This document shows positions 7,500 to 18,999 of a stretch of 64,000 nucleotides of DNA, piece by piece. Both the position numbers and the translations under genes were made by a program. Position 1 is the first letter of the stretch; each line of letters starts with the position of its first letter. The stretch is from assembly GCF_007993035.1 (NCBI RefSeq), contig NZ_VOOS01000004.1:62001-126000 (forward strand), in the 5' to 3' direction. The notes under the pieces were generated by a model that searched no databases, was not told the origin of the DNA, and worked only from the letters and a program-made list of their open reading frames with translations. This DNA is from Vicingus serpentipes. Lineage in GTDB: Bacteria > Bacteroidota > Bacteroidia > Flavobacteriales_E > Vicingaceae.

Positions 7500-8660
7500 T
7501 CATGACAATCCTATCTCCACATCTTTAATAATATCATCGATGTGCTCCAGTCCAACAGAAACACGGATTAATCCTGGTAAAATACCAACCTCTTGTCGTT
7601 CTTCTTCTGAAAGTTTTGAGTGTGTAGTTGATGCTGGGTGAGTTGCAATTGTTCTTGTATCACCTAAATTAGCTGTTAAGGAAATCATTTGTAATTTATT
7701 TAAAAAATCACGCCCTTTTTCGACTCCTCCCTTTACAATAAACGTAACTATTCCACCTCCAGCTTTCATTTGTTTTTTTGCCACATCATATTTTGGATGA
7801 GAAGCCAAAAACGGATGTTTTGCCATTTCCACTTGTGGATGTTTCTCCAACCATTCTGCTAATTTCAATGCGTTTTCAGAATGTCTATCCATCCGAACAG
7901 CCAAGGTTTCTATGCTTTTAGAAATTATCCACGCATTAAACGGTGACATTGCTGGACCTGAATGACGAGCAAACCCCTGAATTTCATCAATTAAACTTTG
8001 CTTACCAGCAATTAACCCTCCTAAAACTCTCCCTTGTCCGTCTAAATATTTTGTAGCTGAATGAATAACCAAATCAGCTCCAAATTTTATAGGTTGTTGC
8101 AAATAAGGTGTTGCAAAACAATTATCAACTATATATAATAATTTGTGCTGTTTCGCAAAATTTCCCAACCATTCTAAATCAATAATATCTACTCCTGGAT
8201 TGGTTGGTGTTTCTATAAAAACCAATTTAGTATTTTCCTGAACTGCATAACTCCAATTTTCGGTATCATTAATATCTACATAAGTAAATGTAATTCCCCA
8301 TTTGGGTAAAATTTTGGTTAAAATAGTGTGTGAAGAACCAAAAATAGAACGACAGGCCAACACATGATCACCTTGTTTTAATAAAGCTCCAAAAGTGGTA
8401 AACACAGCTGCCATACCAGTAGCTGTAGCCCAACCAGCTTCAGCACCTTCTAATGCACAAATTTTTTGTATTAATTCCGTTGTATTTGGGTTTGAAAATC
8501 GACTGTAAATATTGCCCTCAACCTCATCAGAAAACATTGCGCGCATTTGTTCAGCATCATCAAATACAAAACTTGAAGTTAAATGTAATGGTGTCGAATG
8601 TTCGTTAAATTGTGAACGATCACTCTGAGTTCTTACGGCTAAGGTTTCAAAATTTTTCAT
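7500..8660 (-). CDS. metZ: O-succinylhomoserine sulfhydrylase (trans-sulfuration PLP enzyme)
   Basis: The enzyme belongs to the Cys/Met metabolism PLP family and most likely joins sulfide to activated homoserine to form homocysteine. The PLP lysine is Lys204 in SATKYLDGQGRVLGG; the KYLDGQGRVLGG string is typical of MetZ rather than of MetB, MetC or the longer MetY. The length of 386 residues also fits MetZ. It is the last gene of the sulfur operon, 2 bases after the OsmC gene. Because the operon also encodes MetX, the in vivo substrate may be O-acetylhomoserine or O-succinylhomoserine; sequence alone does not settle this. Confidence 0.92.
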   Translation of the reverse strand: MKNFETLAVRTQSDRSQFNEHSTPLHLTSSFVFDDAEQMRAMFSDEVEGNIYSRFSNPNTTELIQKICALEGAEAGWATATGMAAVFTTFGALLKQGDHVLACRSIFGSSHTILTKILPKWGITFTYVDINDTENWSYAVQENTKLVFIETPTNPGVDIIDLEWLGNFAKQHKLLYIVDNCFATPYLQQPIKFGADLVIHSATKYLDGQGRVLGGLIAGKQSLIDEIQGFARHSGPAMSPFNAWIISKSIETLAVRMDRHSENALKLAEWLEKHPQVEMAKHPFLASHPKYDVAKKQMKAGGGIVTFIVKGGVEKGRDFLNKLQMISLTANLGDTRTIATHPASTTHSKLSEEERQEVGILPGLIRVSVGLEHIDDIIKDVEIGLS

Positions 8661-8662
8661 AG

Positions 8663-9073
8663 TTACTTTATTGTGTATGTTGCTGTAATTTCTATCTCTT
8701 TATTTAAACTTAATGCTACTGAACAGTATTTTGTTAAGGTTAAATCAATTGCTTTTTCAACTTTATCAGCATCTAGACTTCCTGTTAAAACAAAATGAAC
8801 ATTGATACTCTTAAAAGCTTTGGATGGTGTTTCATCTCTTGTAGCTGAAACTTCAACCTGATAATCGTCTAGTACCTGTCGTTGTTTTTTTAATATTAAA
8901 CCTAAATCTATGCTTGCACAACCTCCTAAACCCATTAATACCAATTCCATTGGTCGAGCTCCTTTTCCTTCTCCTCCAATCGCGGGATTCGCGTCAATGT
9001 TTACGATAATTTTATCTTCATTTTTAGCTTCATAATGAAAAGCTTGATTGACTCTTTTTAAATTTACTTTCAT
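8663..9073 (-). CDS. OsmC-family protein
   Basis: This is a 136-residue cytoplasmic OsmC/Ohr-fold protein. It has the two family cysteines, one in GLGGCASID near residue 52 and one in KYCSVALSL near residue 117. OsmC and Ohr use such cysteines to reduce organic hydroperoxides; other branches of the family (YhfA-like) are of unknown function. The position in a sulfur-assimilation operon, directly after two YeeE/YedE transport genes and before metZ, suggests a thiol- or sulfur-handling role rather than osmotic stress. That role is inference from context. Confidence 0.9.
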   Translation of the reverse strand: MKVNLKRVNQAFHYEAKNEDKIIVNIDANPAIGGEGKGARPMELVLMGLGGCASIDLGLILKKQRQVLDDYQVEVSATRDETPSKAFKSINVHFVLTGSLDADKVEKAIDLTLTKYCSVALSLNKEIEITATYTIK

Positions 9074-9075
9074 AA

Positions 9076-9489
9076 CTAGTGTGGTAATTTTTGTTTTAAT
9101 AACCCATAACTAAATGTTCCAAGTACAGCAAAGATAATTGGTATTATCATTACAAAATTACCCGCACCTAAATGAACAAATAATGGAGCTGTACATGCTC
9201 CGATAATTGACCAGCCTAGACCAAAAATAATTCCACCAAATAAATTAGCTTTAAACTGCAACGGTTTTCTTAAAGTGTCAATCGTTGAATTGTTAAACGA
9301 TTTTAGGTTTAATTTTTTAATAATGATTACCGAAATTATTCCTACTAAAATTGCAGATGCTATAACTCCAAACATATGAAAAGATTGGAAATGAAACATC
9401 TCAACAATACGATACCACGAAACAGCTTCAGATTTGATTAAGATAAATCCAAAATAAAAGCCAAGAATTACAAATTTTAAATTTTTCAT
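9076..9489 (-). CDS. YeeE/YedE-type sulfur transport membrane protein, second half (DUF6691-like)
   Basis: This 137-residue integral membrane protein has about four hydrophobic segments and the conserved stretch GLGWSIIGACTAP with a cysteine, as in the C-terminal half of YeeE/YedE. Characterised YeeE proteins import thiosulfate through a pore lined with such cysteines. Here the protein is split into two genes; this one overlaps the first half by 4 bases. It lies between cysH and the OsmC gene. The most likely role is uptake of thiosulfate or a similar sulfur compound across the inner membrane; the exact substrate is unproven. Confidence 0.85.
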   Translation of the reverse strand: MKNLKFVILGFYFGFILIKSEAVSWYRIVEMFHFQSFHMFGVIASAILVGIISVIIIKKLNLKSFNNSTIDTLRKPLQFKANLFGGIIFGLGWSIIGACTAPLFVHLGAGNFVMIIPIIFAVLGTFSYGLLKQKLPH

Positions 9490-10043
9490 AAAATATTATC
9501 TAATATTAAAAAAGTACCAATTATTCCGCCAATAAAAAACCCAATTACTGCAATTAAAGAACTTAAACTTAACAACGATAAGCCTGTAATGGCATGTCCT
9601 GAAGTACAACCGCCAGCATACCTAGAACCAAACCCAATTAGAAAACCTCCTAAAGCAATAACTAATCCTGTAAGAGAAAATAGATTGGACCAATTAAAAA
9701 TAGCTTTTGGGAGTATTCCGTTTACTTCTATATTTTTGGATCCAAAATATAATATTCCAGTATCACTTAGTTCTCCTTGCTCTACTAAAATAACCTGAAA
9801 CAAAATAAACCCAGAAATTATAACGCCTAATACAAAAAGAAAATTCCAGAAATAACTCCTTACACTATAAGTAAAATATTCATTTTTACTTACTCTTGAT
9901 AAAGTACAGAAATGCTTAAATATTGATGAAACACCAAACTTTTTATTATCTATAATTAGTAACATAGGTACTATTAGTCCCAATAATGGGCCAGAAATAT
10001 ACCAAGGCCAAGGTTGTTTAAGTATGTTTATTATCTCTTCCAT
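9486..10043 (-). CDS. YeeE/YedE-type sulfur transport membrane protein, first half
   Basis: This 185-residue membrane protein has four to five hydrophobic segments and the family hallmark GSRYAGGCTSGHAITG near residue 140, with the conserved cysteine. It is the N-terminal half of a YeeE/YedE transporter. The ATG at 10043 is preferred over one at 10067, which would overlap cysH and add eight residues. It starts 5 bases after the cysH stop and overlaps the second half by 4 bases, so the two are translationally coupled and probably form one complex. Thiosulfate import is the established activity of the family. Confidence 0.87.
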   Translation of the reverse strand: MEEIINILKQPWPWYISGPLLGLIVPMLLIIDNKKFGVSSIFKHFCTLSRVSKNEYFTYSVRSYFWNFLFVLGVIISGFILFQVILVEQGELSDTGILYFGSKNIEVNGILPKAIFNWSNLFSLTGLVIALGGFLIGFGSRYAGGCTSGHAITGLSLLSLSSLIAVIGFFIGGIIGTFLILDNIL

Positions 10044-10048
10044 ATTTT

Positions 10049-10738
10049 TTACAAGTGTAATCCACACTCCGTTTTAGGGTTATTATTCCATCTTCCATCT
10101 CTTTCTTTTCCGGGAACAGTACAGTGTTTACAACCAATAGAAGAATATCCTTTAGATACCAAAGGATGGAAAGGTAACTTATTTGTTTTAATATACTTTT
10201 CTCTGTCTTTTTTTGAGACATCTAATAATGGGTAAAATTTTAATATTCCTCCACGGTCTTCAAAAATATCTAAGCTTGCTCTATGATCGCTTTGCCATTC
10301 CATTAACCCAGAAACCCATACAGTAAAATTCTCTTTTATTAAAGTTAAAGGCTCTACTTTATTTATTGAACAACAAAGATTAGGGTCTTTTTTCCATGTT
10401 TCATCTTTAGTTGTAAAATCATGTTTCCATTTTTCTGCACCAATACTTTCTACATTTAAGGCATAAAGCTTTGTCAATTCTTCTTTATATTGTAATGTAT
10501 CATCAAAATGATATCCCGTATCGATAAAATATATTTTTTGTGCTGAATTTACTTTAGAAAAAACACGCAATAAAAAAGCAGAAGTGGCTGCAAAAGAAGA
10601 TGTTAACATTATTTCCGTCGCATCAAAATCTTTATACAATTCTTCTATTCTTTCTTCCACAGAAAGTAAGTTATACTTTTTGTTTAGCTTTTTTATTTCT
10701 TCTGCTGAAATCTGTCTTTTTATATTACTCACACTCAT
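10049..10738 (-). CDS. cysH: phosphoadenylyl/adenylyl-sulfate reductase
   Basis: CysH reduces APS or PAPS to sulfite. The 229-residue protein has the PP-loop-like segment TSSFAATSAFLL, the IDTGYHF motif and a C-terminal ECGLHL with the catalytic cysteine. A Cys-Cys pair (NLCCSIN) plus CKHC in SIGCKHCTVPG form the four-cysteine set that binds a [4Fe-4S] cluster. This marks the APS-reducing type, so APS kinase may not be needed. The gene overlaps the upstream siroheme-synthesis gene by one base. No ATP sulfurylase gene is present in the window. Confidence 0.93.
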   Translation of the reverse strand: MSVSNIKRQISAEEIKKLNKKYNLLSVEERIEELYKDFDATEIMLTSSFAATSAFLLRVFSKVNSAQKIYFIDTGYHFDDTLQYKEELTKLYALNVESIGAEKWKHDFTTKDETWKKDPNLCCSINKVEPLTLIKENFTVWVSGLMEWQSDHRASLDIFEDRGGILKFYPLLDVSKKDREKYIKTNKLPFHPLVSKGYSSIGCKHCTVPGKERDGRWNNNPKTECGLHL

Positions 10739-11376
10739 TAGTTTAAATATATTTTGAAATCTTTTTTTACCAATGTTAATTCATCAACAATTTTTGAATT
10801 ACTATTAAGGGCAATAGTTACATTATTTAAATTTTCAATTTTATGATGTAAATCAGCCTTTATTTTTTTTCGAATTGAGTTTAATAATTTAGTAGAAAAT
10901 TCTACTTCATCAGGAATCACATCTTCAAAATACATTCTCATTTTTTTAGCCAAAGTTGGTGATTGTCCATTTGTAGAAATACCCAATTTCAAAGCTCCTT
11001 TTGTAACTATACTCCCCAAATAAAAATCACATAATTCGGGGTCGTCAGCAACGTTTGTTAAAATATCAAGACGTTCAGCATCTTGTTTAATTTTAACATT
11101 TAACGCTCTATCATCAGTAGCTACAATTAACAAATTAATTCCTTCAATATCTGTTTTGTGATATTCTTTTTCAATCAATACAACGTTACTATAAAAATGA
11201 GATAACTCAATAATTTTATAATGAAACTCTTTAGATACAACAGTAATATTTGCTTGAGGACTACTTTTTAATATGTAGGTTAATTTTTCTAATCCAACCT
11301 CTCCTGCTCCAATAATTAAAACATCTATTTTGTCCAGTTTTAAAAAAATAGGGTACAATGTATTTTTAGTTTCCAT
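10738..11376 (-). CDS. precorrin-2 dehydrogenase/sirohydrochlorin ferrochelatase (CysG N-terminal/Met8-like)
   Basis: This 212-residue protein resembles the N-terminal half of CysG and yeast Met8: an NAD-binding GAGEVGLEKL motif, the conserved ISTNGQSPTLAKK segment, and a small helical dimerisation tail. It oxidises precorrin-2 and probably inserts iron to make siroheme, the cofactor of the sulfite reductase encoded upstream. The methyltransferase half is a separate gene (cobA), which overlaps its start by 11 bases. Whether it performs both steps or only the oxidation cannot be read here. Confidence 0.9.
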   Translation of the reverse strand: METKNTLYPIFLKLDKIDVLIIGAGEVGLEKLTYILKSSPQANITVVSKEFHYKIIELSHFYSNVVLIEKEYHKTDIEGINLLIVATDDRALNVKIKQDAERLDILTNVADDPELCDFYLGSIVTKGALKLGISTNGQSPTLAKKMRMYFEDVIPDEVEFSTKLLNSIRKKIKADLHHKIENLNNVTIALNSNSKIVDELTLVKKDFKIYLN

Positions 11377-12127
11377 AATAATTCAAATTTGAGATTTCAT
11401 TAATCAATACTTCTTGCTTTAAAGCCACTACTTCACCAATAATAATAATTGCTGGCGACTGAATGTTTTCTTCAATTTTTAATCTTTCAATTGTATTTAA
11501 CGTACCATAAATTGCCTTTTCAGATTTTAATGTTCCGTTCTGTATAATAGCAATCGGTACATTCCCTTTATTTTGTTTTTTATAAAGATTAACAATTTGT
11601 GTTAACTTGTTTACACCCATCAAGATAACTACCGTTGAGTTAGTTTGAACAGCTAATTTTATATCTTCTGAAAGTACTCCATTTTTATTAGTAGCTGTTA
11701 ACACCCAAAAACTCTGACTTGCTCCTCGATGAGTTACAGGTATTTTCTGAGAAGCAGGAACTGCCACTGAACTTGAAATACCAGGAATTACATTTACTTC
11801 TATCCCAAAAGATTCAACATATTGCAATTCTTCATAACCTCTTCCAAAAATAAATGGATCTCCTCCTTTTAATCTAACCACTTTGCCATAGTTAAAAGCA
11901 TGATCTATGATTAGTTTATTAATTTCATCTTGTCCAAAGCTATGTTTACCCACTCTTTTACCAACGCACATTAGTTTTGCAGAAGATTTAGCATGTTTTA
12001 AAACTGCTTTATTAATTAATGCATCATACAGAATTGCATCTGCATTTTTTATCGCATTAATTGCTTTTAGTGTTAAAAGCTCTGGATCTCCTGGCCCTGC
12101 TCCTACTAATGTTACTTTTGATTTCAT
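11366..12127 (-). CDS. cobA: uroporphyrinogen-III C-methyltransferase
   Basis: CobA (SUMT) methylates uroporphyrinogen III at C2 and C7 with SAM to give precorrin-2, the first committed step to siroheme. The 253-residue protein has the signatures VGAGPGDPELLTLKA at the start, VRLKGGDPFIFGRG near residue 85 and a PVTHRGASQSF segment. It starts one base after the sulfite reductase stop and overlaps the next gene. The operon thus carries both the enzyme that needs siroheme and the enzymes that make it. Consumption of SAM here fits control by a SAM riboswitch. Confidence 0.95.
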   Translation of the reverse strand: MKSKVTLVGAGPGDPELLTLKAINAIKNADAILYDALINKAVLKHAKSSAKLMCVGKRVGKHSFGQDEINKLIIDHAFNYGKVVRLKGGDPFIFGRGYEELQYVESFGIEVNVIPGISSSVAVPASQKIPVTHRGASQSFWVLTATNKNGVLSEDIKLAVQTNSTVVILMGVNKLTQIVNLYKKQNKGNVPIAIIQNGTLKSEKAIYGTLNTIERLKIEENIQSPAIIIIGEVVALKQEVLINEISNLNYYGN

Positions 12128-12128
12128 T

Positions 12129-14243
12129 TTAATTTTTCAGTTCTGATTCTAGTCTATACTCTTCAATATTTTTAAGTATCGATTTAGCATCTGTTAAATA
12201 TTTTAAAGCAAATTCTGCTGTTGGTTTATTCCCTTTAATTTGATAAACCAACTCCGAAAATGTAGTTTCTAATTTTAGTGCTTGTTTTGTTCCAAATTGT
12301 TCTTCAAATTGCGCTATAATTCCTGCTTGGGTATTCGTTTTAATTCCATCGGCAACTAACAAAGCTTTTGCTGAATTGATTAAAGACGTGTAAGAATGAT
12401 AAATACTATCTGCCCATTGTTCATCATTTAAGGCTTCTTGAGCATAAGTCAATTTTTCTTTACTCTCTACTAAAATAGTACTTACTAAATCCAACACAAC
12501 GCCAGCACACTCACCAACTCCAATTGCTTTAACATAAGCTTTATCGTATCCCCAATCAATAAATTCATCTTCTTTTAGGTTTGATGTATCTGATAAAGGT
12601 TTTAATAATTCGTAAAAATATTTTTGGCCTTGTCTATCATAATACGTTAAAAAAGATTCTTCTTCAATAATGTTATCTTCATAATCATCCAACAGCAACC
12701 TTAAAGCGTTTGGACCTCGTTTACTTGGAATTTTAATCACTTTATCAGCAAATCTTCCTTTTCCGTCTCCTAGAATTCCTCCACCCAACAAAACTTGTAA
12801 AGCAGGAGCAACTAATTCACCAGATTTGATTGACATTCCTTGAAACCCAATATGAGCAATGGTATGTTGCCCACAAGCGTTCATACAACCACTAATTTTT
12901 ATTGTAATCTCTTTATTTTTTGCATATTCAGGGTATTCCTCTTTAAGCACTTTTGTTAATTCAGATGCTATTCCTGTGCTGCTAGCAATACCTAAATTAC
13001 AAGTGTCTGTTCCCGGACAAGCTGTAATGTCATGCGTAGAATTATAACCAATTTCAGTAAACCCTAATTGCTTTAATTCGACATAGAAAAAAGGCAATAA
13101 TTCTTCTTTTACATGTCTTATTAAAATATCTTGTCGTAATGTTAACCTTAACTCATTTCCAGCATAATCACGAATTAAATCTGCTAACTTTCTAGCTTTA
13201 TCCGTATAAAAATCTCCTAATGGAACTTTTATTCCAATAGCATACAACCCTTCTTGCTTTTGTTTAATTACGTTTACTTTTTTCCATTTTTCGTATGCTT
13301 TTTCATCCTCAATTTTTACTTTAAAAATTGTAGGACTTGGAATTTCTACTGGCACATCATAAGCGGATGTATCAATTGGGTAAGTTAGATAAGATAAGGC
13401 CTTCTGTTCTTCCTCAATCAGCTCTCTTAGCCTATCTAATCCAACATCTCTAACTAAAAATTTAAATCGTGCTTTATTCCTATTTGCCCTTTCACCATAT
13501 CGATCAAAAACTCTTAACACACTTTCTATAAATGGTATTATTTGCTCTACGGCTAAAAATTCATAAGCTACGTCTGCTAATCGAGGTTGAGAACCTAATC
13601 CTCCTGCAATTAACACCTTAAAACCTCGAATAATTACTCCATTTTCAATTTTGGTTTTTGCTATAAAACCTAAATCATGCATATAACTTAATGCCGTATC
13701 TTCATCACTTCCTGAAAAAGAAAGCTTAAACTTTCTGCCCATATCTTGCCCAACTGGATTTCTTAAAAAGAATTTAAACGCAGCATCAGCATATGGCGAA
13801 ACATCAAAAGGTTCCTTAGGGTCAATTCCTGCAGTTTCAGATGCCGTTATATTTCTTACCGTATTTCCACAAGCCTCTCTTAAGGTAATATCACTTTTTT
13901 CTAGTTCTGCCCATAACTGTGGTGTTCTATCTAAACTCACATAATGAATCTGAATATCTTGTCGAGTTGTAATGTGCAACCTTCCTCGCGAATATTCATC
14001 CGAAACATCAGCTATTTTATGTAATTGCTCAGAAGTAACTTTGCCAAAAGGTATTTTAATTCTAACCATTTGAACTCCAAACTGACGTTGCCCATATACT
14101 CCACGAGCTAATCGTAAGCTTCTAAAGCCTTCTTCATTGATCTTACCTTCTTTAAAAAGACGAATTCTTCTTTCTAAATCAATAATATCTTTCTCAACAA
14201 CTGAATTATTTAAATCTTCTAATTCTGTTCTAAAACTTTTCAT
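12129..14243 (-). CDS. siroheme-dependent sulfite (or nitrite) reductase with C-terminal HEPN-like domain
   Basis: This 704-residue protein has the duplicated ferredoxin-like and NiR/SiR domains of ferredoxin-dependent sulfite/nitrite reductases. The siroheme-[4Fe-4S] ligands are C-x5-C in CPGTDTC near residue 410 and C-x3-C in GCMNACGQH near residue 452. Operon context with cysH, cobA and metZ points to sulfite as substrate. Beyond the reductase, about residues 565-695 form a helical extension (YAQEAL ... YHSYTSLINSAKALL) resembling a HEPN domain, absent from E. coli CysI. HEPN helices often mediate nucleotide binding or RNase activity; here the role is unknown. The extension appears in-frame and intact. 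Confidence 0.9.
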   Translation of the reverse strand: MKSFRTELEDLNNSVVEKDIIDLERRIRLFKEGKINEEGFRSLRLARGVYGQRQFGVQMVRIKIPFGKVTSEQLHKIADVSDEYSRGRLHITTRQDIQIHYVSLDRTPQLWAELEKSDITLREACGNTVRNITASETAGIDPKEPFDVSPYADAAFKFFLRNPVGQDMGRKFKLSFSGSDEDTALSYMHDLGFIAKTKIENGVIIRGFKVLIAGGLGSQPRLADVAYEFLAVEQIIPFIESVLRVFDRYGERANRNKARFKFLVRDVGLDRLRELIEEEQKALSYLTYPIDTSAYDVPVEIPSPTIFKVKIEDEKAYEKWKKVNVIKQKQEGLYAIGIKVPLGDFYTDKARKLADLIRDYAGNELRLTLRQDILIRHVKEELLPFFYVELKQLGFTEIGYNSTHDITACPGTDTCNLGIASSTGIASELTKVLKEEYPEYAKNKEITIKISGCMNACGQHTIAHIGFQGMSIKSGELVAPALQVLLGGGILGDGKGRFADKVIKIPSKRGPNALRLLLDDYEDNIIEEESFLTYYDRQGQKYFYELLKPLSDTSNLKEDEFIDWGYDKAYVKAIGVGECAGVVLDLVSTILVESKEKLTYAQEALNDEQWADSIYHSYTSLINSAKALLVADGIKTNTQAGIIAQFEEQFGTKQALKLETTFSELVYQIKGNKPTAEFALKYLTDAKSILKNIEEYRLESELKN

Positions 14244-14245
14244 TG

Positions 14246-15463
14246 TTAAGCATATTGTAACGCATAAGCGAATTCATATTTTTTATTTAACTGCTTTAAA
14301 GCTTCATCTGTAAGTGCTATAAGAGATAATTTTTCATCCAATAACTCTTCTTGAATTTTAATTAAGTCAGCAATACTCACTTTAGCATACCCTTCTGATT
14401 TGTTGATAATTACAACCTCTTCAATATATTTTTCAAACTGGGTTATTTTATCAGAATAAACCCAAATAAATTCTTGAGTTTCGTACTTAATTCGCTTTCC
14501 TGACAAAATTTTATCATACTTGTATTTATAGTTTTCTGGTGCTTTATAGTCGCTATAAATTACTTGCCCTGTTGGCAAACTACCCGCTCCTTTGCCAATT
14601 AACGTTTGTTTTCCTATACTTTCTGAAACAACTTCTACAGCATTAAACTCATTGTCAACATTATAAAAAACGCTATCGTTAGTTATAAAAGTTGGTAATA
14701 CTGATAACCATAGTTTATTGTTGTTCGATTTTACCGAAGCAATTAATTTAATTTTTAAATTATTTTCTCGAGCAAATGCGATATCACTGTCAGTAATATT
14801 TTGAATCCCAATTTTTAACACTTTAGATGGAGAAATAAATTTTCCAAAAGCATGAGTAGTTAAAATCAGCAACTTATACAAGGCATCACTTCCACTAACA
14901 TCAGAAGTTGGATCAGCTTCTGCAAAACCTAACTTTTGTGCTTTCGCTAATGATTCTTGATAAGAAACATTATCCTTAAATATTTGTGTTAGAATATAGT
15001 TTGTAGACCCATTAAATATCCCTTGAATTTGAGTTACAGTATCTAAACTGTAATAATCATTTAAGGTTCTAATAATTGGAATACTTCCACAAACAGCTCC
15101 TTCATACAAAAATCTTCCTTTACTTTTATTTTCTAGTTCAAGTAATTTTTCTAGATTGTTAGCTATCATTTTTTTGTTTGCAGAAACTACATTTTTACCA
15201 GCTTTTAAAGCTTTAGTAACTATATCAAATGCTTCTTTATCATCACTAATTAATTCAACTACAGTTTCAACAGATTTATCATTAATAACTTCATCTGCCT
15301 CCGTAATAAATTTAGCTTTTACTTCATCTCTTTCTTTATTGTTGTTTTTTATAACAATTTTAGGCAACAGCTTTTCTTCTTTATTTTCTTCTAAGTAGCT
15401 GTAAAATCCTTGACCTACAACTCCAAAGCCAATTAATCCTATATTTTTATTAAGCGTACTCAT
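14246..15463 (-). CDS. hom: homoserine dehydrogenase
   Basis: The enzyme reduces aspartate semialdehyde to homoserine, the carbon skeleton for methionine. The 405-residue protein has the Rossmann motif GLIGFGVVGQG at residues 9-19, VVSANKKMIA, the substrate-domain segment GIFNGSTNYILT and GFAEADPTSDVSG. No fused aspartokinase is present, and the C-terminal 75 residues do not show an obvious ACT domain. It overlaps metX by 14 bases, so homoserine formation and its acylation are coupled. Control is probably through the SAM riboswitch and leader upstream of metX. Confidence 0.94.
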   Translation of the reverse strand: MSTLNKNIGLIGFGVVGQGFYSYLEENKEEKLLPKIVIKNNNKERDEVKAKFITEADEVINDKSVETVVELISDDKEAFDIVTKALKAGKNVVSANKKMIANNLEKLLELENKSKGRFLYEGAVCGSIPIIRTLNDYYSLDTVTQIQGIFNGSTNYILTQIFKDNVSYQESLAKAQKLGFAEADPTSDVSGSDALYKLLILTTHAFGKFISPSKVLKIGIQNITDSDIAFARENNLKIKLIASVKSNNNKLWLSVLPTFITNDSVFYNVDNEFNAVEVVSESIGKQTLIGKGAGSLPTGQVIYSDYKAPENYKYKYDKILSGKRIKYETQEFIWVYSDKITQFEKYIEEVVIINKSEGYAKVSIADLIKIQEELLDEKLSLIALTDEALKQLNKKYEFAYALQYA

Positions 15464-16496
15464 ATCGTTTAGTTTTTAATTTTTGTGTTAAATAAAATTT
15501 TTCAAATAATTCTTTTAGTTGGTCTGTTTCTATTAAAAATCCATCATGACCATATAATGAATCTATTACTTCCAATTCAGCATCTTTAATGCTATCTGCT
15601 ATTAAAATTGACTCAGAAACTGGAAACAATAAATCAGAATTTACAGCTACAACTAATGTGTTTGCTTTAACTTGATTTAATGCTTTAGTAATGCTTCCTC
15701 TGCCTCTACCCACATCATGACTATCCATCACCTTACTTAAGGTCCAGTAAGAAAAAGCATTAAAGCGATTAACTAATTTTTCACCTTGATAATTTTGGTA
15801 AGACGAAGCTTTATAACAATCAATTCCCTCTCTATTGTCCTCTTGAGTTGCTCGATAAGTATTGTAATTACGATAGCTTAATAATGCAATAGAACGAGCT
15901 GCTTTCAACCCTTTTAAACCCGCATCATCGCTGTAAGAATACCAACTTCTATCAGCTTTAATTGCTAAACGTTGACTTTCGTTAAAAGCAATTCCCCAAG
16001 GAGAATGCTTTGCATTAGTAGCTATTAAAATTAAATTCTCTATTAAAGATGGATTTATAATGCTCCATTCTAACGCTTGTTGCCCGCCTAATGAACCGCC
16101 TAAAAGAGTTTGAATTTTTTTAATCTGTAAATAATCTTTCAACAGCTCAAATCCATTTACAATATCTCGAATAGTAAGTTGAGGAAAGCTATGGTAATAT
16201 TTATTTCCATTATCAGGATTAATTGACAAAGGTCCTGTAGATCCATAAGCCGACCCCAAAACATTTGCGCAAACAATAAAATAGTTTTCAGGATTATAAA
16301 ATTTGCCTTTACCAACTAATCCATTCCACCACTCTTCAGGATTTGAATTAGCTGTTAAAGCATGTGTTATCCATATCACATTATCGCCTGTTGAGTTTAA
16401 CTTACCTATAGTAGTATAAGCAATCTCTATCTTTTGTAGCGATTCTCCAGATTCTAATCCGAATATTTTGTTGTATTTATAAGTTTGTAGTAACAT
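15450..16496 (-). CDS. metX: homoserine O-acetyltransferase
   Basis: MetX activates homoserine with an acyl-CoA so that sulfide can be attached. The 348-residue alpha/beta hydrolase-fold protein has the nucleophile Ser in GGSLGGQQALEW near residue 135, the Asp in NSDLLFP and the His in GHDGFLIETDQ. Family members use acetyl- or succinyl-CoA, and residue-level prediction is uncertain, which matters because metZ is in the same operon. An upstream in-frame ATG at 16556 lies inside the predicted leader hairpins; the ATG at 16496 begins the conserved region. It is the first structural gene of the ten-gene sulfur operon. Confidence 0.94.
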   Translation of the reverse strand: MLLQTYKYNKIFGLESGESLQKIEIAYTTIGKLNSTGDNVIWITHALTANSNPEEWWNGLVGKGKFYNPENYFIVCANVLGSAYGSTGPLSINPDNGNKYYHSFPQLTIRDIVNGFELLKDYLQIKKIQTLLGGSLGGQQALEWSIINPSLIENLILIATNAKHSPWGIAFNESQRLAIKADRSWYSYSDDAGLKGLKAARSIALLSYRNYNTYRATQEDNREGIDCYKASSYQNYQGEKLVNRFNAFSYWTLSKVMDSHDVGRGRGSITKALNQVKANTLVVAVNSDLLFPVSESILIADSIKDAELEVIDSLYGHDGFLIETDQLKELFEKFYLTQKLKTKRYEYA

Positions 16497-16529
16497 TTTA
16501 AAAAATAAAAAATGAGATTTTAAGATATA

Positions 16530-16602
16530 GTTGTCTCCTTTGTTTTGGAGAAACATTACCTAAGTTTTCGAGAAAATAATTGAATAACTAAATGGTAATG
16601 TT
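16530..16602 (-). promoter_or_regulatory. candidate attenuator: two mutually exclusive hairpins between leader ORF and metX
   Basis: On the reverse strand AACATTACC (16594-16602) can pair perfectly with GGTAATGTT (16552-16560), closing a 33-base loop. The downstream arm overlaps GTTTCTCC (16547-16554), which can instead pair with GGAGACAAC (16530-16538) with one bulge. The two stems share three bases and cannot both form fully. The upstream arm begins within the stop codon of the Cys-rich leader ORF, so ribosome position could decide the fold. A T-rich run follows about 15 bases after the second hairpin. The base pairing is visible; the regulatory function is inferred. Confidence 0.5.
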
Positions 16603-16726
16603 AATGACTGAAACAACAGCACATAAATGGCACTACACAATTATGATGAGCCCTTAAAGGCAAATTAGAAACACAACTTACTTGTAGTAAGTTTTTTGTC
16701 TTAATTGATGAATAATTCGTTTTCAT
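16601..16726 (-). CDS. 41-residue Cys-rich leader peptide upstream of metX
   Basis: An ATG at 16726, 10 bases after the last strand of the SAM aptamer P1 helix, opens a 41-codon frame ending at TAA 16601-16603. The peptide begins MKTNYSSIK, includes LPLRAHHNC, and ends PFMCCCFSH with three consecutive Cys codons (residues 36-38) and five Cys in all. No signal peptide is convincing. Its position between a riboswitch and a sulfur operon, with the Cys run just before possible alternative hairpins, is what a cysteine-sensing leader peptide would look like. Translation is not proven. The longer in-frame extension upstream to 16825 runs through the aptamer and is not expected to be coding. Confidence 0.6.
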   Translation of the reverse strand: MKTNYSSIKTKNLLQVSCVSNLPLRAHHNCVVPFMCCCFSH

Positions 16727-16732
16727 TTTGCA

Positions 16733-16858
16733 ATTTTTTATATGTTCCGCAACATCGCGGATAGGATTTGGCACCGGTTTTCCAATTCTTTTTACAGAAC
16801 TTTTAGTTGGTTGCCAGAAGGTCAAAGAGCCTATTCTCTCGCTTCTTCTTTATAAACA
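16733..16858 (-). ncRNA. SAM-I-family riboswitch
   Basis: Reading the reverse strand 5' to 3', the elements of the SAM-I aptamer appear in order. P1 is TTTATA (16851-16856) paired with TATAAA (16737-16742). The P2 arms are AGAAG and CTTCT, with a kink-turn-like GAGAGAATAGGCTC between them. The near-invariant CTGGCAACC is at 16808-16816. P3 closes with GGTGCC at 16770-16775, followed by AAATCC. P4 is the hairpin TCCGC/GCGGA at 16746-16761. It lies in the 5' leader of metX and the sulfur/methionine operon. No terminator U-tract follows the aptamer; the leader ORF start follows instead, so control of leader translation or downstream folding is likely. The family call is strong; the switching mechanism is inferred. 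Confidence 0.88.
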
Positions 16859-16897
16859 ATTACAATTCACTGGGTGAGTGGTAACTGAAAATCAATG

Positions 16898-16928
16898 CAA
16901 ATATAAAGAACAATGTTTTATAATTCAA
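16898..16928 (-). promoter_or_regulatory. promoter of the metX sulfur operon
   Basis: On the reverse strand TTG (16926-16928, within TTTTG) is followed by a 20-base spacer and TATATTTG (16898-16905), a full match to the Bacteroidota consensus. Transcription should start near 16891, about 35 bases before the riboswitch. The 550-base region 16497-17046 has no protein-coding gene other than the leader ORF; bases 16929-17046 hold nothing else I recognise. Confidence 0.72.
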
Positions 16929-17046
16929 AATTTAATTCTGTATTTTTATTATAAAAACCAAAATTCAATACATTATTTTGAAATGATAAATTAAAAGGCA
17001 CAATAAAGTTGTTTTATAAATAAACAACAAAAGAAAAATTATGATA

Positions 17047-18999
17047 TTACTTTAAAATAATTCGACCTAGTTTTTCAGACAATTGGCGCTGCACACCTTT
17101 TAGGTGCTTATATTCAGTCATTAGCCTAATTTGTTCTATATCGTTCTTTTCTATTTTAAGTTGTGAACCGATCTCTTCAAGTAAATATTCTACCTTCGTG
17201 GCTTTAAAGGCGAAAACACTATTAAATATTGCCATTTTAACCTGGCTTTCTTCAGTTTTAACAAAAATGCCGTGGTTTTTCCAATTTTCACTCACTTCAT
17301 ATTTGTTTGATAGAACATCAATCGCTAATCTACTTATATCTTGATTTAAATTATTGATAAAATCTTGGTGTGTTGGAATTCGTTCTTCATTTACCATCTC
17401 AACATAATGATTAAAAGCTTCTTGTAGTATTGGGTTGTCAAACGTTAATCCGTCACCATTAATATTAGACAGAATATAAACTGCAGCTGTTACTTCTTGT
17501 TGTTGAATTTCTTCATTTTCACCCAACACATCTACTGTAATTATTTCGGCTCCATAAGAAATTAATAACCTTATAATTTCATGCTCCCAATGTGCTACCT
17601 TACTTGAAATACTTGAGCTTTTTTCTTCTTGTGGTTCGTAAAAGTCTTCAATTGGTGGTGGACCATCATCAAAATGTTGCTGTTGAGGCTTTGAAGCTTT
17701 ACCCCGTAAAATTTTATTTGTTTCGTTAATTAATGCCTGCTCACCTATATCAAGCAGCGAACTACATTCTTGCGTATAAATAGAACGTTTAATTTGATCA
17801 GGGATTATTGCAATACTAGCAACAATTTCTTTAATTAATTCAGCTTTTTTAATGGGGTCATTTCCAACTTCTTCTAATAAAACCGAAGTTTTAAAACGAA
17901 TAAAATCTTGAGCATGCTCTTTAATATATGCTATTAACTCATTTGAAGAATGATTTTTAGCATAAGAATCCGGGTCTTCACCATCAGGAAAAAGAACAAC
18001 CCTCACATTCATCCCTTCTTGCAAAATCATATCAATACCTCTAAAGGAAGCTTTTAATCCAGCTGCATCTCCATCATAAAGAATTGTAATGTTTTCGGTA
18101 AAACGTTTAATTAATCGTATTTGCCCCTCCGTTAAAGAAGTTCCTGAAGAAGAAACTACATTTTCAACACCTGATTGATGTAAAGAAATAACGTCAGTAT
18201 AACCCTCTACCAAGTAGCAATTATCTTGCTGTATAATTTCCTTTTTGGCAAAATAAATACCATAAAGCACCTTGCTTTTATGGTATATTTCTGATTCTGG
18301 TGAGTTTAAATATTTGGCAGCTTTTGCCTCAGTTTTTAAAATACGACCTCCAAATCCTAAAACCCTTCCTGAAAGGTTATGAATAGGAAACATTACTCGT
18401 CCTTTAAAACGATCGAATTTCTTCTCTTCTTTAACTATTGTTAAACCTGATTTTTCAAGAAATTCAATACTATGACCATTCTTTAAAGCCTCATCTGTAA
18501 AAGCACTCCATTCATCTGGGCTGTACCCCAACTCAAACTTTTCAATAATATCTTCTCTAAATCCTCGCTCTTTAAAATAGCTCAATCCAATTGCCTTTCC
18601 GGCTTGGGAATTGTGCATTTGGTCTTTAAAATATTTTGAAGCATAATTAGAAACAACAAACAAACTTTCCTTTTCGTTTGCTGCCAATTTTTGTTCATCT
18701 GTCTGCTCTTCTTCTTCAACTTCTATATTATACTTATTGGCTAAGTAACGTAAAGCTTCTGGATAAGAATAATGCTCATGTTCCATTATAAAATTAATGG
18801 AGTTTCCAGCTTTGCCACATCCAAAACATTTATAAATTCCTTTTGCAGGAGAAACAGTAAAAGAGGGGGATTTTTCGTTATGAAATGGACAATTACCTAA
18901 GTAGTTAGCTCCACGCTTTTTTAACGCAACAAACTCTCCGACAACATCTTCAATTAATGCCGCGTCAAATATTTCGTCTATGGTACTTTTTGGAATCAT
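17047..18999 (-). CDS. dnaG: DNA primase
   Basis: DnaG makes RNA primers for replication. The 650-residue protein has the CHC2 zinc finger (Cys37, His40, Cys58, Cys61), the RNA-polymerase core with GRVMFPI and GFGGR, and the TOPRIM motifs LVEGYTDVISL and LYDGDAAGLKA. A Gln/Pro/acidic linker follows, then a C-terminal helicase-binding-like region. Its start overlaps the stop of the MORN-like lipoprotein gene by one base. The start MIPKSTIDEIFDAA is the conserved N-terminus. It runs toward the metX leader with about 190 bases to the operon promoter. Confidence 0.97.
   Translation of the reverse strand: MIPKSTIDEIFDAALIEDVVGEFVALKKRGANYLGNCPFHNEKSPSFTVSPAKGIYKCFGCGKAGNSINFIMEHEHYSYPEALRYLANKYNIEVEEEEQTDEQKLAANEKESLFVVSNYASKYFKDQMHNSQAGKAIGLSYFKERGFREDIIEKFELGYSPDEWSAFTDEALKNGHSIEFLEKSGLTIVKEEKKFDRFKGRVMFPIHNLSGRVLGFGGRILKTEAKAAKYLNSPESEIYHKSKVLYGIYFAKKEIIQQDNCYLVEGYTDVISLHQSGVENVVSSSGTSLTEGQIRLIKRFTENITILYDGDAAGLKASFRGIDMILQEGMNVRVVLFPDGEDPDSYAKNHSSNELIAYIKEHAQDFIRFKTSVLLEEVGNDPIKKAELIKEIVASIAIIPDQIKRSIYTQECSSLLDIGEQALINETNKILRGKASKPQQQHFDDGPPPIEDFYEPQEEKSSSISSKVAHWEHEIIRLLISYGAEIITVDVLGENEEIQQQEVTAAVYILSNINGDGLTFDNPILQEAFNHYVEMVNEERIPTHQDFINNLNQDISRLAIDVLSNKYEVSENWKNHGIFVKTEESQVKMAIFNSVFAFKATKVEYLLEEIGSQLKIEKNDIEQIRLMTEYKHLKGVQRQLSEKLGRIILK

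Follow-up and report, generated by a model that had tools for sequence, protein, structure and literature searches.

We analysed a 64,000-nucleotide stretch of the Vicingus serpentipes genome (contig NZ_VOOS01000004.1, positions 62,001–126,000), hereafter the window, in which a leader region on the minus strand lies between a primase-like gene (17047–18999, named by eye) and a cluster of sulfur genes. The first gene 3′ of the leader is metX (15450–16496), whose product had its best match in the homoserine O-acetyltransferase model TIGR01392; the score of 334 bits is under the 500-bit NCBIfam cut-off, so the name rests on the best match and on context. Nine further sulfur genes follow on the same strand (7500–15463), encoding a homoserine dehydrogenase, a sulfite/nitrite-reductase-type enzyme, a uroporphyrinogen-III methyltransferase, a siroheme N-terminal-domain protein, the PAPS reductase CysH, two TsuA/YeeE-type proteins, an OsmC-type protein and a sulfhydrylase-type PLP enzyme. 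Their names come from NCBIfam, with scores below the cut-off for the sulfite/nitrite-reductase-type enzyme and the first TsuA-type protein, or from inspection by eye, as for the second TsuA/YeeE-type, the OsmC-type and the sulfhydrylase-type proteins. metX and these nine genes probably form one co-transcribed operon.

Read 5′ to 3′, the leader opens with a promoter-like site of the Bacteroidota sigma-A type, the −7 box TATATTTG (16905–16898, minus strand), which matches TAnnTTTG; TTTTG at 16930–16926 stands roughly where we take the −33 box to be expected. TAnnTTTG is given as the promoter consensus in a published transcriptome study (PMC9723704), and it was present 37–55 nt 5′ of the aptamer in 54 of 58 leaders of the groups V, M and P defined below. 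The site is followed by a predicted SAM-I (S-box) riboswitch aptamer (16735–16858, minus strand), which matched RF00162 over the full length of the model (1–108), scoring 65.8 bits (gathering score, 44.4), and whose RNA is predicted to bind SAM. A preliminary description of the window had named both the promoter and the aptamer and had expected the Rfam match; a promoter-like site and the aptamer are there, and the aptamer, placed at 16733–16858, ends at 16735 by the Rfam boundaries. The 41-codon leader ORF MKTNYSSIKTKNLLQVSCVSNLPLRAHHNCVVPFMCCCFSH proposed in the same description was confirmed at its coordinates (16601–16726 with the stop codon, minus strand): the ATG lies at 16726–16724, the stop TAA at 16603–16601, and the 41-residue peptide has three consecutive Cys codons near its end (TGC TGT TGT, 16621–16613), directly preceded by a Met codon, so that the Met-Cys-Cys-Cys codons occupy 16613–16624. 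Measured from the Rfam end of P1, the leader ATG follows after 8 nt rather than the 10 bases originally counted. The ORF is downstream of the promoter-like site, of the helix P0 described below and of the aptamer, so it would not be leaderless, judging from these positions rather than from a mapped transcript start. The leader peptide had no match in NCBIfam, and a search of 60 relatives returned its own copy at E = 7e-25 and a next best hit at E = 0.0485; the element is thus not detectable by peptide sequence search.

The leader was then compared across a sample of 46 Vicingaceae-like genomes, an order-level search having given the same 46. SAM-I aptamers were found in 42 of these genomes, at 58 sites, by a scan whose filters can miss weak matches; 38 sites precede metH, and 20 precede metX or metY. 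In all 20 metX/metY leaders an ORF of 39–56 residues begins 8–10 nt past the aptamer, and 18 of these ORFs carry at least three Cys within the last 14 residues, the other two carrying two. By contrast, not one of the 38 metH leaders had a CCC-run ORF inside 500 nt, so the occurrence of the ORF behind metX/metY aptamers is more than chance. Conservation of the ORF and its Cys codons in relatives, one of the checks named in the preliminary description, is thus borne out. Its second candidate for conservation, the motif LPLRAHHNC, was present in none of the other leaders listed and was rejected.

Similar leaders occur outside the family. A search for MetX in named genomes yielded 585 confirmed loci, of which we took the best 80; 11 belonged to the same family, and the 69 others were scanned with Rfam. 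Since these loci were chosen by MetX similarity, the counts that follow are not phylum frequencies. Among the best 80 of 585, a SAM-I aptamer was found upstream of metX at 65 of the 69 loci outside the family, mostly about 1.6 kb 5′ of metX and separated from it by another gene, often metY-like. In 46 of these 65 leaders, an ORF that starts 4–12 nt past the aptamer carries at least three Cys among its final 14 residues. They comprise 17 of 17 Mucilaginibacter-type leaders, 19 of 21 Pedobacter-type leaders and 10 others, with Parapedobacter, Albibacterium, Adhaeribacter, Pontibacter and a Bernardetiaceae bacterium among them; in the remaining 19 leaders such an ORF with three Cys at its end is lacking. 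At the Runella, Emticicia, Flectobacillus, Dyadobacter and Jiulongibacter loci in the sample, the aptamer is present and no such ORF follows it within 60 nt. At class level, the 26 best-scoring further SAM-I loci, 18 of them with metH downstream, included none with a Cys-run ORF starting within 20 nt; one class-level locus, L109, has an 18-residue ORF with Cys-Arg-Cys.

For the analysis of coding character, 69 leaders were arranged in four groups: V (the family), M (Mucilaginibacter-type), P (Pedobacter-type) and X (others, selected for a Cys run). Of the 65 SAM-I leaders outside the family, eight with no usable ATG within 20 nt never entered the set (L127, L131, L146, L151, L153, L162, L169 and L171), and a further eight were left out for lack of a Cys run or a length below 25 residues (L135, L139 and L192; L136, L144, L165, L177 and L193). 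Through these drop-outs the composition of group X is a selected one, V, M and P not being selected on Cys; with that proviso, Cys accounted within the final 12 residues for 40, 45, 29 and 36% in V, M, P and X, respectively, and in the rest of the leader peptide for 0.8, 1.2, 6.8 and 0.7%. Met showed the same tendency, with 26, 12, 19 and 10% of the last 12 residues against 0, 0.2, 1.0 and 2.4% elsewhere, an enrichment that fits genes making both amino acids; ATG in this region is also favoured by an RNA hairpin present in P and in part of V. The 69 leaders use both Cys codons (190 TGT and 165 TGC), and apart from a few residues at the start, the Cys/Met run was the sole feature seen to be common to the genera. 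These comparisons, together with the pN/pS and reading-frame counts given below, support a coding leader with a regulatory run of Cys/Met codons, whose translation is predicted. The earlier proposal that the leader senses cysteine through its Cys run holds to the extent that the Cys codons are a conserved coding feature; it is too narrow in that Met codons are enriched as well.

Upstream of the ORF, the aptamer helix P1 is extended in the window to about 14 base pairs. The 5′ strand of the extension, TTGTAAT (16859–16865, minus strand), pairs with ATTGCAA (16728–16734, minus strand), which ends 1 nt before the leader ATG. This 5′ strand is mostly common to a competing helix, P0, in which CAGTTAC (16881–16887, minus strand) pairs with GTAATTG (16863–16857). 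Out of 500 shuffles, 4 were as stable as the P1 extension of the window and 37 as stable as its P0. The extension had a mean energy of −7.8 kcal/mol in the 20 family metX/metY leaders versus −0.9 kcal/mol in the 38 metH leaders (Mann–Whitney P = 5 × 10−10), with means of −4.3, −5.2 and −5.7 kcal/mol in M, P and X. P0 was paired in 95.7% of 140 cells over 20 sequences (9.0–52.5% when slid), and of 500 shuffles on the 3′ side, 11 reached the paired percentage and 35 the covariation score. By column counting in the family, the P1 extension was paired in 86.4% of cells (37.9–46.7% when slid) and had no double-sided change, 463 of 500 shuffles reaching its covariation score; the sequence is conserved there. 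Arm-swap tests between 24 lineage representatives, picked by hand, gave 0 of 10,000 permutations reaching the own-arm mean for the P1 extension and 0 for P0, with 3008 and 6011 for two controls. Within groups V, M, P and X, where group X was selected for at least three Cys, the signal was weaker, with 228, 50, 468 and 0 of 5000 for the P1 extension and 151, 52, 172 and 16 for P0; outside V, the lowest control count was 169 of 5000 (control 1 in X). As the permutations ignore relatedness, none of these figures, nor those of the arm-swap tests below, is a probability.

Translation in Bacteroidota mostly starts without a Shine-Dalgarno sequence and needs open RNA before the ATG; a helix ending at that point should therefore block initiation. 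The idea that SAM binding could gate leader translation is strengthened by a P1 that reaches the ATG in the window, ends near it elsewhere and covaries between lineages. On these grounds the leader ORF is a candidate riboswitch-controlled upstream ORF.

The other end of the ORF offers a second pair of competing helices. Segment 1 (16630–16644, minus strand), inside the ORF, pairs with segment 2, AACATTACC (16594–16602, minus strand), which begins in the stop codon, to give helix A; segment 2 alternatively pairs with segment 3, GGTAATGTT (16552–16560, minus strand), to give the 9-bp helix B. Helix A is weak in this genome (−7.5 kcal/mol; 214 of 500 shuffles as stable), and helix B was equalled in stability by 2 of 500 arm shuffles. 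The stem previously described as starting inside the ORF's stop codon is thus exact; of the two mutually exclusive stems described with it, the exclusive pairing exists, but the partners are A and B rather than two stems downstream. In the family (n = 20), arm-swap tests gave 0 of 5000 permutations for A and 0 for B, against 2913, 4391 and 4409 for three controls (helix A arm window, stop −6 to +22; control 3 window, stop −75 to −47). Own arms averaged −13.0 versus −9.7 for swapped arms in A and −11.7 versus −8.4 in B, and the two helices have at least 3 nt of segment 2 in common in 19 of the 20 genomes. These results support mutually exclusive helices on segment 2 in the family, as predicted structures. 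The MAFFT alignment of the attenuator region looked too poor for column counts on B, and arm-swap tests were used for this reason; B reached 5 of 10,000 permutations between the 24 lineage representatives and was not significant within groups (M 401, P 1982 and X 2656 of 5000). Directly adjoining helix B is hairpin C (16534–16551, minus strand; TCTCC 16551–16547 with GGAGA 16538–16534), which has no U-tract directly after it and overlaps B only when extended (GTT/AAC), so that mutual exclusion of B and C is partial at best. A translational switch in which segment 3 would pair with the metX/metY start was tried and rejected: own and swapped arms in V averaged −7.46 and −7.66 (2087 of 3000), and the counts were 913 of 3000 in M (n = 15) and 2773 of 3000 in P (n = 4, the start motif being recognised in few).

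The reading we favour, with a probability of about 0.7, is a two-input leader in which SAM gates translation of a Cys/Met-sensing attenuator peptide. With SAM bound, P1 would be kept extended, ending against the leader ATG, and ribosomes would be barred from the ORF; with SAM absent, P0 would capture the 5′ strand of the P1 extension and leave the ATG free. On a leader being translated, a shortage of Cys-tRNA, probably also of Met-tRNA, would stall the ribosome on the Cys/Met codons near the end. A ribosome stalled at the first Cys codon, 18 nt before the stop, would cover roughly 35 to 6 nt before the stop. Such a footprint would mask most of segment 1 and free segment 2, allowing helix B to form, which would be the ON state. 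When both Cys and Met are plentiful, the ribosome would run on to the stop codon, where segment 2 begins, so that B would be blocked; on an untranslated leader, helix A would take segment 2, with the same outcome. Formation of B would require both a translated leader and a shortage of Cys/Met, the condition in which biosynthetic genes ought to be expressed, and the genes would thus be on only at low SAM and low charged Cys/Met tRNA. The gene content downstream fits this model. Sequence comparison supports the aptamer, the position and coding character of the ORF, its Cys/Met run, P0 versus extended P1 and, in the family, A versus B; ribosome stalling and the direction of its effect are what this layout suggests, and the last step to metX would run through Rho-dependent termination, metX translation or mRNA stability. 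That there exists a whole class of such composite leaders over several Bacteroidota orders, with a platform on the 5′ side (P0 versus extended P1), AND logic and no intrinsic terminator, we consider an even bet.

In the window we found no intrinsic terminator, and across the groups terminators were not above shuffles (V, 6 of 20 with 3.8 expected; M, 3 of 17 with 3.3; P, 1 of 21 with 2.6). With no 3:4 hairpin with a U-tract found, we do not file the leader as a classical attenuator; of the attenuator and anti-attenuator roles first suggested for the stems, what stands is that A and B covary in the family. Rho is the simplest candidate for the last step, by analogy with an M. tuberculosis Mbox, for which riboswitch, upstream ORF and Rho control are reported together (PMC12810186). 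The same precedent and the same lack of terminators would equally suit a model in which a SAM-bound or fully translated leader exposes RNA to Rho, a stalled ribosome shields it, and the helices are non-functional. Helix A is indeed unsupported outside the family (M 2206, P 2735 and X 4637 of 5000; 1837 of 10,000 between lineages), but B covaries between lineages and A does so with B in the family, and this model needs neither. We regard it as a tentative alternative with the odds somewhat against it; it differs from the favoured two-input leader only in the role of A and B, so that confidence in one does not exclude confidence in the other.

It is unlikely, in our estimate, that the leader instead holds two independent layers, a SAM-I switch and a separate Cys leader, brought close together by mere compactness. 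Tandem independent switches are known, as with SAM-I and AdoCbl ahead of Bacillus clausii metE (PMC2258182). Against this stands the spacing of the two parts: considering only ATGs within 20 nt of the aptamer end, the leader ATG lies 4–12 nt past that end in the 69 leaders and 6–9 nt past it in 64 of them. The covariation of the P1 extension toward this ATG between lineages also argues against independence, and no terminator was seen.

A working Cys-rich micropeptide under SAM control, with the downstream genes following by polarity, would explain why the ORF looks coding (pN/pS 0.45 over 19 pairs, single pairs ranging from 0 to 3.4), but outside its start and the Cys/Met run the peptide varies between lineages, with lengths from 25 to 56 residues, and we consider this very improbable. 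Equally far-fetched is the notion that an enclosing RNA hairpin of the GTATGTGC/GCATGTAC kind gives rise to the Cys codons as a by-product: such a hairpin surrounds them in Pedobacter-type and several family leaders, but in-frame Cys runs are kept in other lineages amid different sequence (KACCC, GSCCCC, YCCCCCSLSS, LCCCSCSDRR), and a count over the last 14 positions in three frames gave 473 Cys codons, of which the leader's own frame has 334 and the others 129 and 10.

Each part of the favoured two-input leader has known counterparts. With SAM-I (S-box) riboswitches of RF00162 it shares the sequence and structure of the aptamer, Met genes downstream and P1 as presumed switching helix; unlike in the usual SAM-I riboswitch, the output presumed for it is a leader-ORF start codon, rather than a terminator or the ribosome-binding site of an enzyme gene, and the competing strand, that of P0, lies 5′ of the aptamer. 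Ribosome-mediated attenuators of the trp/his type combine a leader ORF containing a run of codons for the pathway product with competing 1:2 and 2:3 helices. The window leader resembles them in its codon run, in 1:2 versus 2:3 pairing and in the place of segment 2 at the stop codon, and departs from them in that no 3:4 terminator with a U-tract was found and the start of the ORF is in reach of a riboswitch helix. Short ORFs with Cys codons ahead of Cys-related genes have also been reported: the actinobacterial polycysteine leader ORFs (Canestrari et al. 2020, as cited in PMC9031893; cys leaders, PMC1262725) and uORFC-8-2 ahead of cysS (PMC8632094). The actinobacterial leaders likewise have the Cys run close to the stop. 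In the accessible portions of these sources, no riboswitch is described for the polycysteine leaders or uORFC-8-2, the M. smegmatis polycysteine leaders are leaderless, unlike the window ORF, and uORFC-8-2 has a terminal U-run, as would fit an intrinsic terminator, again unlike the window leader (PMC8632094). Riboswitches acting on a small upstream ORF that affects downstream expression are represented in M. tuberculosis by the ppe2 B12 switch (PMC11260477) and the pe20 Mbox (PMC12810186); these have other ligands, and the available text of the two reports describes no amino-acid run and no attenuator helices. In Bacteroidota, the accessible part of the Flavobacterium psychrophilum transcriptome study mentions leader-peptide attenuation upstream of amino-acid operons, the genes not being named there (PMC9723704).

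Among the open-access papers listed in our searches we found no earlier report of a SAM-I switch joined to a Cys leader, and subscription papers may report one; on that basis, what would be new is that a SAM-I riboswitch is wired in series with a Cys/Met leader peptide. If the two-input reading is correct, one RNA would read two end products of a branched pathway through a riboswitch and a translating ribosome in series, and the output of the riboswitch would be a second sensor. It would also provide a testable attenuation system in culturable Bacteroidota genera (Pedobacter and Mucilaginibacter) and pose the problem of how expression is halted in leaders of this kind without intrinsic terminators.

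Several further observations concern SAM-I leaders in these genomes. V. serpentipes has a second SAM-I aptamer (L001, 1501–1626, contig C6), 58 nt 5′ of metH, with neither a Cys leader nor a long P1 extension. In five Larkinella loci (L136, L143, L144, L165 and L177), a short ORF soon past the aptamer begins M(T/I)NIRCCMP; it encodes 33 residues in L143 and 13 in the other four. The Fibrisoma locus L127 has MLYIHCCMPLAGR 23 nt past the aptamer, and these Larkinella and Fibrisoma ORFs are possibly a reduced Cys-Cys-Met version of the leader. At L131 (491–602) and L146 (480–591), a metY-type start follows the SAM-I aptamer after only 28 nt and there is no leader ORF, which may reflect direct SAM-I control in relatives without the Cys leader. 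A record titled Flavobacteriaceae bacterium PS02338 (L179) has a Pedobacter-type leader and peptide, and its label may be wrong. Two Pedobacter-type loci have a Flavo-1 RNA (RF01705) on the opposite strand, 3′ of metX (L155, 4558–4636; L176, 4703–4781). Finally, from about +10 to +60 past the leader stop, Pedobacter-type leaders contain a conserved motif, in which a nearly invariant CTTCC/GGAAGG stem stands immediately 5′ of a variable hairpin and a mostly conserved TACGC.
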